From Synechococcus sp. PROS-9-1 (GTDB lineage: Bacteria; Cyanobacteriota; Cyanobacteriia; PCC-6307; Cyanobiaceae): a stretch of 64,000 nucleotides of DNA. The translations under genes were made by a program, and so were the position numbers. Positions 55,336-61,389 of the stretch are shown piece by piece. The stretch's first letter is position 1; every line of letters starts with the position of its first letter. Below the pieces are notes generated by a model. That model worked only from the letters and a program-made list of their open reading frames with translations. It was not told where the DNA came from and searched no databases. The stretch is from NCBI RefSeq assembly GCF_014279775.1, contig NZ_CP047961.1, forward strand, positions 1,426,001 through 1,490,000, in the 5' to 3' direction.

Positions 55336-57078
55336 TCAGTGAGCCTCCTGAACTTCAGGATCGAGTGTGGACCCTACAATTTCTGCAGGAGAGGTTTGAC
55401 TTCGATCTCGGATAGTTAAACAGGTATGGAGTAAACCATCACGAACCAGTTCTGAGTATCGATTTGAAATTGCCGAATCAACTCTCTGACAATCTGAAAT
55501 AGCTCGTTCACGCGCACCAGGAACGGAACTGGAATAATCAAAACGGATCACAACGGGAATAGGCAGATCACGAGAAACATTTAAGCCTTTGAAAATTTTT
55601 ACACCAACATCTAAATCTGGTGCACCCTCTTCGACGGTGTCCAAGTGAGCAAAATATGTGAGGTTGCGTAAATGGACTTCTTTGAAACCAATGCCGACAC
55701 CAATAAAACGTTCTGCATGGCCCGCATCTGGATACGAACCACCATGAAGCTCAGTCACGTAATCAATCTGAGAAATATTGTTAGCGATTAAACGAGTAAG
55801 CAAGGACACCATTCCCGAGTCCATCGCTCCTGGCGCACCAGATTCAATAGCTTCAGCGATCTGGATCAATGCCTGATCAGGAGACATCGTTGAAGTTACC
55901 GCGTAAAGATCTTGAGCAGACACCCATCGATCTAACTGAGTTGAACTGTCGCTTGCGGGTGGATGAACCCTGATCGCATCGGTATCGGTATCGAGTCCAA
56001 TCAACAGCAAGTCAACGGATGCACCACAACAAAAGCTGTTTTCAACAGCTTGACGGAAGTCAAGAAGCCGCTGATATCCGGCAGAGGCCGCCAATTTGTC
56101 GTCACTTCCGTGGGCAGCGCAGCCTTGATGACTGGGATCCAAGGAGCTGAAGTGATAGGTCACAACCTTGAGATAACGGGTGTCTTGGCTGGCAGCGTTA
56201 GGGATGGACTCGAGATAACGCCGGTGTTCAGTCTTGACCCATCGGTTAACCGTATTTTCAACGTCAAACATGGCTCCAGCATGGGAGCGGCGACGCACTG
56301 AGCTGAACGGAATGCGTAGGGCATAAGCAATGGAATGAGCTAGCCGACCATCCGCACAAGGGGTTACATCAAGGAGATGGAAACCGCAATCAAGCAGAAA
56401 GTGCTCAAAAATGTTTGCCGCTTCACTGCCTGAAGAGGCAGCGAGAGGATCGTTCTGAAAAAAGGAATCACTAAAGACACGGTGCGACTCAAAAACACAC
56501 CACGCATAGAGCGCTCTCATGTCCAAAGGACGAACCCAGGCACGCTCAAGAATGTGCTTAGGAAGGTCAAAGCCAAGTTCCCGACGCGCTAAAAGCTGTG
56601 CCTGATCAATAAAGTCAGCGTGATGTTGCAGCGCTGAAATCTTTTGAAGGAGAGGAACGATCCTTTCAAAGCGCCCTTTAACTTCCAGTTCGTAGGCCTG
56701 CAAATGCTCATTAGCAACCGGATCCGTTAAGGGATGCCGGCGATTAGAGACCAGACGGTTGGCTGAAGAAACAGTCCTTGACGACTTTTGATCGCGACGA
56801 ACCCAGCCAGGTTGTTGAGGTACTGAACGCCTGCTGTCTTGGCTTGTTCTGACACGACCGGCGCCGAGCGTGCCTTGAGCCAAGACAGCTCCCTTACCCG
56901 ATGTCGTGAGCGCTCTTCGTCTTTCAAGAGAGGCTGCGCGGGCCGAAAGCGGATTGGGATCAGCTTGCGTGAGTTCAGAGAAAGCCGAAGACTCCGCTCT
57001 CTCTTCTTGCAGCTGACGTCGCGTCGGAGCGGAGGGGGACAGAGGTCGCCCGCCGCGGGAAGGCACAGAGCGGACCAT
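55336..57078 (-). CDS. csoSCA: carboxysomal carbonic anhydrase CsoSCA
   Basis: Dehydrates bicarbonate to CO2 inside the carboxysome. The 580-residue protein has a disordered N-terminus (1-120), a helical domain, the catalytic domain and a C-terminal non-catalytic repeat. Probable zinc ligands are Cys241 (PCADGRLAH), His309 (YHFSS) and Cys320 (HQGCAAHG), with spacing close to the known enzyme. Residues 45-85 contain LERRRALTTSGK and GRVR, very like the first N-repeat of CsoS2 here. It is 7 bases downstream of csoS2. Confidence 0.95.
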   Translation of the reverse strand: MVRSVPSRGGRPLSPSAPTRRQLQEERAESSAFSELTQADPNPLSARAASLERRRALTTSGKGAVLAQGTLGAGRVRTSQDSRRSVPQQPGWVRRDQKSSRTVSSANRLVSNRRHPLTDPVANEHLQAYELEVKGRFERIVPLLQKISALQHHADFIDQAQLLARRELGFDLPKHILERAWVRPLDMRALYAWCVFESHRVFSDSFFQNDPLAASSGSEAANIFEHFLLDCGFHLLDVTPCADGRLAHSIAYALRIPFSSVRRRSHAGAMFDVENTVNRWVKTEHRRYLESIPNAASQDTRYLKVVTYHFSSLDPSHQGCAAHGSDDKLAASAGYQRLLDFRQAVENSFCCGASVDLLLIGLDTDTDAIRVHPPASDSSTQLDRWVSAQDLYAVTSTMSPDQALIQIAEAIESGAPGAMDSGMVSLLTRLIANNISQIDYVTELHGGSYPDAGHAERFIGVGIGFKEVHLRNLTYFAHLDTVEEGAPDLDVGVKIFKGLNVSRDLPIPVVIRFDYSSSVPGARERAISDCQRVDSAISNRYSELVRDGLLHTCLTIRDRSQTSPAEIVGSTLDPEVQEAH

Positions 57079-57085
57079 CAGTTGA

Positions 57086-59434
57086 TCAGCCCCGTGCTCC
57101 GCCTGAGACGGTAATCAGTGAACCCTTAGAGGTATTTCCACTGGAACCCGTTACGCGACTTTCAGGCCATTCAGACTGCTCGTTGCGCTTTCGTTCGAAG
57201 GGGGGCATGGCTGCCATCGCGCCAGAGCGACTTGGATTCCGACGACGAGCCGAGACTCCTTCGGTCCCTGTTACGTGTTCACCACGATCCCAGTCATCAC
57301 CAGTGACTTTGGTGGACGAACCTTCACCGGTGACCCGAGAAGCAGGTTCTTGAGCCGCGACTTCAACCTCAGGGGTGGTGGGTTGAAATTGACGTTGGCC
57401 TTGTCGTTGGCTGTGAAGCTCCTGAAATTCGCGATTATCGAATCGGAATTGTTCCGTGCCGGTGATTTTGCCACCGGCCAAATCAAAAGGGCCTGTAATA
57501 CGGCTGCTGTCTTCGTAAGCGGTACCAGTAACGCCTTTGCTGGTCTCACGCTGTTGCTGTGCAGCACGGGCAGGAGAAACCACGCTGAATCGAGTCCAAC
57601 TCGACCCTTCTGGTGATTGCCCATGCGTATCTGTTCCTTGGGGTGCCTCAGCACCACAAGCTGCTGAGAGCTGATCGGAACCGATATAAGGCGTACCGGT
57701 CACAGTTTCACAAGCGCCGCGTTCGCCGCCTGTCATCACTCCTCCAATACCTGGTTGCAGGCCTGTCATCGGGGAGGAAGGTGTACCGGGGCGGACGGGA
57801 GTCCGTTCGCGAATCGCCTGAACGGCTGAGTTACCGCAGTAATTGCCGGCTTGCTCGAGACCTGCGTAGGGCGTTCCTGTTACTGCTTTGCAGCTTCCGG
57901 GCTCATCACCCGTGACCTTTTCGGAACGCCCTGTACGCGTGCCGCTAACAACTTGATTCCGATTGGTGACGCTGAATCCAACCTTGGCAGCTTCTGGATC
58001 GGGCTTCGCTCCGCAAAATGAATTGACCTGTTCTGAACTGATGTATTGATCACCAGTCACTCGATGACAGGATCCGAATTCATCTCCAGTGACATTTGAG
58101 GAACGGCCAACCATCGTGCCGGTCACGCCTGTTCCAGAAAGGGTTTCAGACAGACCAACCTTGGTGGCTGGGCGTCCTTCGGGCAGAGGCTCAGATCCAA
58201 GATATTGATCACCCGTCAGGCTGCGGTTTGCGCCGGCCTCGTTACCAGTGACATTGGAGGCCTGGCCAACCATGACACCACTAATGGGCCTGCCCTGTTG
58301 GCTTTGGCTGTGGCCAACTTTGCGAGGCGAGGGATTCATGCCTCCGCAATAAGCAGCGCTTTGGTTCGCCGAAATGTATTCAGTACCTGTAACGCTTTTG
58401 CAGGTGCCGGGCTCATCCCCAGTCACTTTCTCCGAACGACCAACCTCGTTGCCTGTGACCCGATTGCCATGGCTGGTGGCAGACACACGAACCTTGGCGG
58501 GTGTTGTTGGCGTTGGAGCGCTCTGACAGAAAGTCTGAAAGACCTCTGCACCGAGATATTCAGTACCCGTAATCGATCGACAAGTGCTGGCTTCGTTGCC
58601 CGTCGTCTTGACGGAGCGATTCGCCTGAGTGCCAGTCACAGTCTGGCCTCCAGTGGTCTCTGACTCACCCACCTTCCAGTGAGCATCAGCGGAAGCGGCT
58701 TGCTTGGATCCGTTCCGATTCGGGCCAGTTGGACGTGTGACTCCAGCGCTTTGCTTGCTACGAGCTCCGGACTTCGCACGAAGCTCACGCACTTGCTGAG
58801 CCAGCTCTCGACTGGTGAGGTCAGGATTCGCCTGACGGGCCACTGCAGCAGCGCTTGTAGGTTGTTTACCAGCTGTTTTCCCGTGTTTAGACATCGCATC
58901 ACGACGAGCTAAAACGAGTGCACGGCTCGGATTATCAATGGCACGACGCTTTGGAGCTTTGCTGCGGCGGGAGGGATTTTTGGTTGAAAGATCGACAGAT
59001 ACCGCCTGACGACTCAAGCGCGTTGGCGGTTCAGCTGCAGGGACTGGTGTGGATGTCGTTGTCGATGTATTACGAGCGACCTCAGCTCGATTTCTATCTT
59101 TGGTTGTATCTGCTGATTTCCCACGGCGTGAAAGGGCCTCTCGGCGAGCCAGAACGAGCTCGCGGCTTGGTTGGCTAACGGGTTTCACCCGAGAACGATG
59201 GGACCCTGAAGAAGAGCTCAGTGTTTGATGTCTTGGTCGCTCTGAAGCGACGGGGGTTGCGGCTTGTGAAGGGGCTGCCGCAATTGGATCTGCGTTGGTG
59301 CGCGTCTTACGGGCATCGTCGGCCGACCGAACGCGATTCGCACCTGCTGAAACAGCAACGGATGCCTTTTTGCCAGCAGTGGTGAGAGCCTTACGGCGCT
59401 CGAGTGCTAGTTCGCGACTAGAGAGTCTTGCCAT
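57086..59434 (-). CDS. csoS2: carboxysome assembly scaffold CsoS2
   Basis: Intrinsically disordered 782-residue organiser that binds RuBisCO and shell. Four N-repeats (residues about 4-24, 89-109, 168-188, 206-227) carry the SRELxLxRRxAL...GK pattern; the fourth is degenerate. Six middle repeats (starting about 253, 315, 372, 425, 484 and 552) carry paired VTG motifs and most have two Cys. The third lacks both Cys. The C-terminal region (about 610-782) has further VTG elements and ends with LITVSGGARG. Confidence 0.96.
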   Translation of the reverse strand: MARLSSRELALERRKALTTAGKKASVAVSAGANRVRSADDARKTRTNADPIAAAPSQAATPVASERPRHQTLSSSSGSHRSRVKPVSQPSRELVLARREALSRRGKSADTTKDRNRAEVARNTSTTTSTPVPAAEPPTRLSRQAVSVDLSTKNPSRRSKAPKRRAIDNPSRALVLARRDAMSKHGKTAGKQPTSAAAVARQANPDLTSRELAQQVRELRAKSGARSKQSAGVTRPTGPNRNGSKQAASADAHWKVGESETTGGQTVTGTQANRSVKTTGNEASTCRSITGTEYLGAEVFQTFCQSAPTPTTPAKVRVSATSHGNRVTGNEVGRSEKVTGDEPGTCKSVTGTEYISANQSAAYCGGMNPSPRKVGHSQSQQGRPISGVMVGQASNVTGNEAGANRSLTGDQYLGSEPLPEGRPATKVGLSETLSGTGVTGTMVGRSSNVTGDEFGSCHRVTGDQYISSEQVNSFCGAKPDPEAAKVGFSVTNRNQVVSGTRTGRSEKVTGDEPGSCKAVTGTPYAGLEQAGNYCGNSAVQAIRERTPVRPGTPSSPMTGLQPGIGGVMTGGERGACETVTGTPYIGSDQLSAACGAEAPQGTDTHGQSPEGSSWTRFSVVSPARAAQQQRETSKGVTGTAYEDSSRITGPFDLAGGKITGTEQFRFDNREFQELHSQRQGQRQFQPTTPEVEVAAQEPASRVTGEGSSTKVTGDDWDRGEHVTGTEGVSARRRNPSRSGAMAAMPPFERKRNEQSEWPESRVTGSSGNTSKGSLITVSGGARG

Positions 59435-59533: not shown

Positions 59534-59875
59534 TCAACGTCCTTCGAAAACCACGAAGCAGGAACCTTGGCCCTGGGTGTAGGCGTCGTAGCCAACGATG
59601 CGAACGTGATGGTCGGGGTATGCACGATGGCAAGCCTCGAGTTCACTCACAACAACGTTGAGGTCCTTCTCACCGAAGAAGGGGAGCTTCCAATAGGACC
59701 AGTAAGTGGCCATGGAATTGGAAGGGTGGACGTGCTCAACGAGCGGGCTCCAACCTTGGGCAATGATGTAGGCGATCTGGTCATAGATCTCGTCCTGAGT
59801 CATCGGCGGAAGGAAGCCGAATGTCTCCAGGGTGGCGACTGTTTGGTAGTCACCCACGGTGCTCTGAAAAGGCAT
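59534..59875 (-). CDS. cbbS: RuBisCO small subunit, form IA
   Basis: A 113-residue small subunit of ribulose bisphosphate carboxylase. Landmarks are TLETFGFLPPMTQDEIYDQIAYIIAQGW, WSYWKLPFFGE and CHRAYPDHHVRIVGYDAYTQGQGSCFVVF. ATG 59875 matches the usual MPFQSTVG start; GTG 59884 adds three residues. It lies 101 bases after cbbL with hairpins in between. Confidence 0.96.
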   Translation of the reverse strand: MPFQSTVGDYQTVATLETFGFLPPMTQDEIYDQIAYIIAQGWSPLVEHVHPSNSMATYWSYWKLPFFGEKDLNVVVSELEACHRAYPDHHVRIVGYDAYTQGQGSCFVVFEGR

Positions 59876-59888
59876 GGGGATCACGCTT

Positions 59889-59976: not shown

Positions 59977-61389
59977 TCACTGAACGTCGAGCTTGTCGAC
60001 GGTGTCGAACTCAAACTTGATCTCCTTCCAGGTCTCGAGAGCGATGGCCAGCTCAGGGCTGTGCTTACCGGCTTCCATAAGGATGTCGCGGCTTTCTTTC
60101 TCGATCTCACGACCAGCGTTGCGTGCCTTAACGCAGGCCTCGAGGGCCACACGGTTGGCAGCAGCACCAGCTGCGGAGCCCCAGGGGTGACCGTGGGTAC
60201 CACCACCGAACTGAAGGACGGAGTCGTCTCCGAAGATGGCAACCAGTGCTGGCATGTGCCATACGTGGATACCGCCGGAAGCAACGGCGAACACACCAGG
60301 CATGGAACCCCAGTCCTGATCGAAGAAGTTGCCGCGGCTGCGATCTTCAGGAACGAAGGATTCGCGCAGTTGGTCGATATAGCCGAGGGTGGTCTGACGA
60401 TCACCTTCCAACTTGCCGACCACGGTGCCGGTGTGGAGTTGGTCACCACCTGACAAACGCAAACACTTGGCGAGTACGCGGAAGTGAATGCCGTGCTTGG
60501 GATGACGGTCAATCACAGCGTGCATCGCACGGTGAATGTGGAGCAGCATGCCGTTCTTACGACACCACTTCGACAAACCGGTGTTGGCTGTGAAGCCACC
60601 AGTGATGAAGTCGTGCATGATGATCGGCTGGTTGAGTTCTTTAGCGAACTCAGCGCGCTCGTACATCTCTTCGGGGGTGTTAGCAGTCACGTTGAGGTAG
60701 TGACCCTTGCGCTCGCCCGTTTCCTGTTCAGCAATCTTGATAGCTTCCGCAACGAACTCGAAGCGGTTCTGCCAGCGCTGGAAAGGCTGAGAGTTGATGT
60801 TCTCGTCGTCTTTGGTGAAGTCCAGACCGCCGCGAAGGCACTCATAGACAACACGGCCATAGTTCTTACCGCTCAAGCCAAGCTTTGGCTTGATGGTGCA
60901 ACCCAGAAGAGGGCGGCCGTACTTGTTCATCCGGTCACGCTCAACGGCAATACCGTTTGGCGGGCCTGCGCAGCACTTGATGAACGCAATCGGGAAGCGA
61001 ATATCTTCCAGACGCAGGTGGCGCAGAGCTTTGAATCCGAACACGTTGCCGACCAGAGAGGTCAGAACGTTGGTGATTGAACCCTCTTCGAACAGGTCGA
61101 GGGGATAAGCGATGAAGGCATAGAACGCCTCCTTGTCACCAGGAACGTCTTCGATGCGGTAGCAACGCCCTTTGTAGAAGTCGAGGTCGGTGAGGAGCTC
61201 GGACCACACAGTGGACCAGGTACCAGTTGAAGATTCAGCGGCAACAGCAGCTGCAACTTCTTCTTTAGGAACACCTTCTTGGCCGGTGCATTTAAAGCAT
61301 GCCAGCAGGTCGGTGTCTAGGGGAACGTAATCAGGAGTCCAGTAAGTGTCTCTGTACTCCTTGACGCCAGCGTCGTACTTCTTGCTCAT
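59977..61389 (-). CDS. cbbL: RuBisCO large subunit, form IA
   Basis: Carboxylates ribulose 1,5-bisphosphate. The 470-residue subunit has [15 protein letters not shown] (catalytic Lys), [17 protein letters not shown] (carbamylated Lys with Asp and Glu metal ligands), the loop-6 region and [15 protein letters not shown]. The short N-terminus and cso context define form IA. The start codon is 67 bases after the csoS1 stop. Confidence 0.98.

Follow-up and report, generated by a model that had tools for sequence, protein, structure and literature searches.

To our knowledge, no consensus motif by which the carboxysomal carbonic anhydrase CsoSCA binds Rubisco has been found, and the loading of CsoSCA into cyanobacterial α-carboxysomes is unsettled. 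The window analysed here, 64,000 nucleotides of the 2.27-Mb genome of Synechococcus sp. PROS-9-1, raises the question of whether CsoSCA obtained a Rubisco-binding repeat from the adjacent scaffold gene csoS2. All of the genes and elements described below lie on the minus strand. The csoSCA gene (55336..57078) encodes a β-carbonic anhydrase of 580 residues. Residues 114–580 form the folded enzyme and are homologous to CsoSCAs of solved structure, with residues 114–572 matching that from Cyanobium (8thm, E 1.6e-214) and residues 113–570 that from Halothiobacillus neapolitanus (2fgy, E 1.6e-128). Residues 1–113 constitute a disordered tail, with an AlphaFold2 pLDDT below 50 across most of residues 1–111. 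The putative source of the repeat, csoS2 (57086..59434, 782 residues), ends 7 bases before the start of csoSCA. Upstream are cbbS (59534..59884) and cbbL (59977..61389), encoding the small and large subunits of Rubisco, of which the latter is the presumed binding partner.

The CsoSCA tail and the first repeat of CsoS2

The initial annotation placed a near-copy of the first CsoS2 repeat, N1, at positions 56824-56946, corresponding to CsoSCA residues 45–85, and both of its segments are located there. The N1-like core RAASLERRRALTTSGK (residues 47–62, 56893..56940) exactly fits RxxxxxRRxxxxxxGK, the Rubisco-binding consensus of CsoS2 (PMC10614612), which 44 of 47 marine Synechococcus tails contain. 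Its counterpart in CsoS2 is the N1 core RELALERRKALTTAGK (residues 7–22, 59369..59416). The match extends past the core, as had been claimed, into a second block, GRVRTSQDSRR in CsoSCA (residues 74–84, 56827..56859) and NRVRSADDARK in CsoS2 (residues 33–43, 59306..59338). The core and second block of CsoSCA are separated by 11 residues, not by 14 as originally counted, and those of CsoS2 by 10, and therefore the spacing agrees better than was claimed.

A BLASTP comparison of the complete proteins aligned CsoSCA residues 44–85 with CsoS2 residues 4–44 (22 of 42 positions identical, E 5e-7). The Smith-Waterman score of the CsoSCA tail was 97, which was reached by none of 5000 composition-preserving shuffles (maximum 91), and the score of the downstream block alone was reached by 6 of 5000. 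When whole genomes were searched with CsoSCA, 11 yielded matches, including that of PROS-9-1, and the csoS2 N1 repeat ranked second in each of them. Within the PROS-9-1 genome, the only matches of a joint repeat model at E < 0.06 were CsoSCA and the CsoS2 repeats N1, N2, and N3, and the next match covered 15 residues of a 37-residue frame holding a stop codon. These comparisons confirm that the resemblance is real and stronger than first claimed.

The repeat in CsoSCA is specifically of the N1 type. Only CsoS2 sequences of Prochlorococcus and of the Cyanobium type were used to build profiles of N1, N2, and N3, with marine Synechococcus excluded, and the tails were classed as marine Synechococcus, Prochlorococcus, or Cyanobium type from record titles and the tree. 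The median scores of 47 marine Synechococcus tails were 36.1 bits for N1, 10.1 for N2, and 7.4 for N3, corresponding to a preference for N1 of about 26 bits. CsoSCA of PROS-9-1 scored 37.4, 8.1, and 6.0 bits, respectively; its comparison repeats in CsoS2 have the cores RELVLARREALSRRGK (N2, residues 91–106, 59117..59164) and RALVLARRDAMSKHGK (N3, residues 171–186, 58877..58924). The top N1 score among shuffled tails of all groups was 13.1 bits, and the maximum across 65 Prochlorococcus tails (one of them, L163, of uncertain placement) and 27 Cyanobium-type tails was 3.4 bits. A profile of the downstream part of N1 gave 15.2 bits on CsoSCA of PROS-9-1, above the 11.1 bits of the best shuffle; its median over 44 tails was 5.8 bits, a value attained by 0.5% of shuffles, while the downstream-part profiles of N2 and N3 yielded no match in CsoSCA tails. 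Residues R34, R36, and D40 of this N1 block are invariant in 32 cyanobacterial CsoS2 sequences, and Halothiobacillus CsoS2 has a weaker form of the block after its second repeat. The signature of the CsoSCA repeat is mixed, since its TT[S/A]GK end has the marine Synechococcus N1 form and the alanine two positions after the first arginine is Cyanobium N1-like.

Distribution of the repeat and selection on it

The joint repeat model was run against 400 genomes of the family and matched 353. Of the matching genomes, 28 belong to genus g1 and 32 to genus g12, the groups that contain the named marine Synechococcus. Two matches, in CsoS2 and CsoSCA, were present in 25 and 31 of these, respectively (56 of 60 together), whereas none of the other 293 matching genomes of the family had the copy in CsoSCA. 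Two of the exceptions (G184, G196) lack the repeat, a third (G177) lacks the core and keeps the second block as GGRVRSAGDQR, and the fourth (G316) has a single match, located in a frame of csoSCA length. The non-carrier tails within the clade are deletions: L164 and L165 are without the block, and L167 is without the core. Three candidates for CsoSCA copies outside marine Synechococcus were rejected. The matches in G142 and G333 involve short contig fragments, and both matches in G396 belong to one frame of csoS2 length with an internal N1 duplication. The latter genome, of genus g25, has two N1-like matches (L213, L215; contig 16:16547-16846) approximately 190 bases apart, which represent a tandem duplication of N1.

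According to Blikstad et al. 2023 (PMC10614612), the CsoS2 motif had been seen in "a handful" of CsoSCA sequences, which were attributed to Prochlorococcus, and its evolutionary relationship to CsoS2 had been suggested. CsoSCA of PROS-9-1 has the same motif; in the present sample, the motif is near-universal in marine Synechococcus and extends into the N1-specific second block. The repeat is present in none of the 65 Prochlorococcus tails sampled (one of uncertain placement). Our literature search found no description of the spread of the repeat, its N1 identity, its second block, or selection on it. The motif itself was known before; added here are its distribution across the clade, how far the match extends, and the selection and natural losses.

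Other motifs of the tails also vary. Six Cyanobium-type tails (L162, L171, L176, L180, L183, L125) contain RGTRAR[A/V]A in place of the N1-like repeat, and this is possibly an alternative Rubisco-binding motif. In one tail (L166, from G278), NGRPQAPSRRQLRQNQDRS is present twice, on either side of the N1-like repeat, and the sequence VGK is common to ALATVGK of this CsoSCA and ALTIVGK of its own N1. GPTAPRK apparently occurs twice in the Prochlorococcus tail L097, which again points to the duplication of motifs within tails.

Selection was evaluated as pN/pS over 44 non-redundant motif-bearing tails, in all of which the match to N1 is kept and which had been picked for the motif; most segments had a pS of approximately 0.7, with lower values for residues 1–12 (0.33) and PSAPTRRQL (0.59). 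The ratio was 0.21 for the core, 0.43 for the second block, and 0.18 for the folded enzyme, in comparison with 0.89 and 0.65 for the linkers. The core is thus under purifying selection like that on the folded enzyme. Choosing motif-bearing sequences does not account for the conservation, because the non-carriers of the clade are deletions and not substituted forms. Residues R47, R53, R54, A56, L57, G61, K62, A64, R75, and R77 are invariant, and selection keeps mainly the residues by which the CsoS2 consensus contacts Rubisco. PGWVRR (residues 90–95, 56794..56811), which follows the repeat, is also conserved (0.25 for the QPGWVRR stretch) and persists as QPAWVRR in tails that have no repeat.

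Within the tail, conservation is highest in PSAPTRRQL (residues 15–23, 57010..57036; pN/pS 0.12), which is found both with and without the repeat. Its first seven residues, PSAPTRR (15–21), are one substitution away from PTAPx[R/K]R, named as a general motif of cyanobacterial CsoSCA tails (PMC10614612). In Cyanobium, CsoSCA binds the Rubisco of the same organism (PMC10154267), and the Cyanobium-type CsoSCAs examined have no N1-like repeat, so the repeat is unnecessary for binding in general. It is therefore conceivable that PSAPTRRQL is the main Rubisco anchor in marine Synechococcus, as in other α-cyanobacteria, and that the N1-like repeat is auxiliary or raises the valency. We regard this as a possibility of some substance but not as the leading one, since selection on the N1-like core is nearly at the level of the folded enzyme, and no binding by PTAPx[R/K]R is reported in the literature consulted. 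Such an anchor could coexist with a copied N1, and the difference from the explanation that we favour is one of emphasis.

Origin of the repeat and its binding partner

We consider it likely, with a probability of roughly 0.7, that N1 was transferred once, in the distant past, from csoS2 into csoSCA and that this copy, apart from losses in a few lineages, now anchors the anhydrase to Rubisco. The initial annotation had suggested duplication from csoS2 into csoSCA, and the protein comparisons bear this out, while nothing in the DNA points to recent copying. The preference for N1, the downstream block absent from N2 and N3, the confinement to one clade, and the position in the adjacent gene together make homology to N1 well supported, and this homology argues for duplication from csoS2 over the independent invention of a short motif. 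At the DNA level, the two 156-base segments align no better than expected. The codon identity between the CsoSCA repeat and N1 is 30.5% within strains, compared with 31.3% in permuted pairs and 33.7% expected from codon usage. The absence of a signal at synonymous sites indicates that any copying took place long ago. Ongoing gene conversion was rejected, because the within-strain identity does not exceed that of permuted pairs and the S or A preceding GK in one gene does not follow that in the other. N1 codons are 61% alike among strains compared with 32% for the codons of the CsoSCA repeat, which suggests an additional nucleotide-level constraint near the start of csoS2.

The same codon identities would be expected if the tail had evolved its Rubisco-binding motif by convergence, independently and under selection by Rubisco, without any copying of csoS2. 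Short disordered motifs turn over fast, and plasticity of the motif has been argued for (PMC10614612). However, synonymous sites are saturated, and the codon test is therefore unable to exclude an old copy. Moreover, the match runs with equivalent spacing beyond the contact consensus into a block specific to N1, and both the 26-bit preference and the lineage-specific TT[S/A]GK end point to N1 itself. Convergence is thus an unlikely origin of the repeat.

Under the favoured descent from N1, the simplest history suggested by the sequences would be one gain and two losses of the CsoSCA repeat. The free tree of the CsoSCA core divided marine Synechococcus into two groups and needed four changes of the repeat trait. 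This division was rejected, as a tree holding all marine Synechococcus, and with them the carriers, as one clade was not rejected (p-AU 0.65) and fits 8 log units better than the tree from the free search. Alternatively, the gain may have preceded the split from Prochlorococcus and been followed by loss there. CsoSCA of PROS-9-1 groups with the named marine Synechococcus. The genome is filed in genus g1, yet its CsoSCA core clusters with g12 sequences (support 96), possibly owing to recombination of the locus or an error of the tree.

The Rubisco site bound in Halothiobacillus is conserved in PROS-9-1. CbbL residues D99, S345, F346, and G362 and CbbS residues D94 and Y96 are kept, and Y72 of CbbL is replaced by phenylalanine. 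Phe72 is found in all 125 α-cyanobacterial CbbL sequences compared, including that of PROS-9-1, and Y96 in all 134 CbbS sequences compared. Variation between tyrosine and phenylalanine at CbbL position 72 has been mentioned (PMC10154267), and Tyr72 has been termed conserved in α-carboxysomal Rubisco (PMC10614612), in contrast to the phenylalanine throughout the α-cyanobacterial sequences. Beside the site, the CbbS residue equivalent to S99 of H. neapolitanus is glycine in 9 of 45 marine Synechococcus, including PROS-9-1, and serine in nearly all other sequences. Phe72 permits cation–π stacking and lacks the hydroxyl that is hydrogen-bonded by R23 of H. neapolitanus CsoSCA, and would therefore suit a CsoS2-like binding mode. 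AlphaFold2 predicts a helix in CsoS2 residues 6–19 (pLDDT ~75) and, with low confidence, in CsoSCA residues 46–59 (pLDDT ~40), which are equivalent after alignment.

The copied module might instead chiefly bind another partner of N1, a shell protein or CsoS2 itself, and so place CsoSCA at the shell. Peptide arrays of MIT9313 CsoS2 gave signals for CsoS1 and CsoS1D in the N region besides Rubisco (PMC4499774), CsoSCA is reported to contact the shell in H. neapolitanus and is able to enter minishells via shell proteins (PMC12646314), and the second block has no known role. Nevertheless, R47, R53, R54, G61, and K62, all invariant, are residues of the published Rubisco-binding consensus, and with the Rubisco site also conserved, a different main partner is quite improbable. 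That two disordered segments rich in arginine, alanine, serine, and threonine are alike merely by chance can be dismissed, given the shuffles and the retention of the match across the 44 sequences.

Proposed role of the repeat in CsoSCA

The CsoSCA repeat resembles the CsoS2 N-repeats (N* peptide, PDB 6UEW) in its core consensus, its N1-specific downstream block, the conserved Rubisco site, and a helix predicted, albeit with low confidence, at the equivalent residues. It differs from them in being present as one copy per chain in the tail of an enzyme, compared with three or four in the scaffold, and in that its binding is predicted. In H. neapolitanus, CsoSCA enters condensates of Rubisco and CsoS2 and competes with CsoS2 for a single site on Rubisco; the CsoSCA peptide PRLDLIEQA binds the site in a different mode and is blocked by CsoS2 (PMC10614612). 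That peptide (PDB 7SMK) is likewise part of the disordered tail of the enzyme, and an overlapping Rubisco site is expected for the N1-like repeat. However, its sequence is unrelated and is absent from the CsoSCA tail of PROS-9-1, and it is buried and held by hydrogen bonds, including that from R23 to the hydroxyl of Y72, which is absent in the α-cyanobacteria compared.

Based on these comparisons, a mechanism can be proposed. In an ancestor of marine Synechococcus, csoSCA would have received, in the 5' part that encodes its tail, a copy of approximately 40 codons from the 5' end of the adjacent csoS2, which specify N1 and its downstream block, and selection has retained the copy since. The most probable structure of the repeat is a short helix, which would occupy the groove where two CbbL subunits meet one CbbS subunit. 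CsoSCA would be tethered to Rubisco in the mode of CsoS2, with arginines stacked on aromatic residues and salt bridges. The CsoSCAs of Cyanobium and Halothiobacillus are hexamers (PMC11086599, PMC12646314), and by homology, the particle would have six copies of the repeat. CsoSCA may therefore act as a six-handled, low-abundance cross-linker that joins the Rubisco–CsoS2 condensate at the sites of the scaffold. We infer that the repeat binds Rubisco and competes with the scaffold in marine Synechococcus; such competition has been published for Halothiobacillus only, where the peptide is different. PSAPTRRQL is probably a second, older anchor. We tentatively propose, as a less secure extension, that the N1 core and the RVRxxxDxR block, together about 40 residues, constitute a transferable cargo tag of cyanobacterial α-carboxysomes that passed, in one lineage, from the scaffold to the enzyme, and that its second half makes an undescribed conserved contact.

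The strong preservation of an old N1 copy in the CsoSCA tail means that enzyme and scaffold probably grip Rubisco by the same kind of handle, shared by descent. An abundant ocean lineage thereby offers a specific candidate peptide together with a natural series of deletions, comprising tails with the repeat, without its core, and without the whole repeat. If the proposed mechanism is true, the relative strength and number of the handles could set the anhydrase content of each carboxysome, and the module would be a ready cargo tag for engineered carboxysomes.
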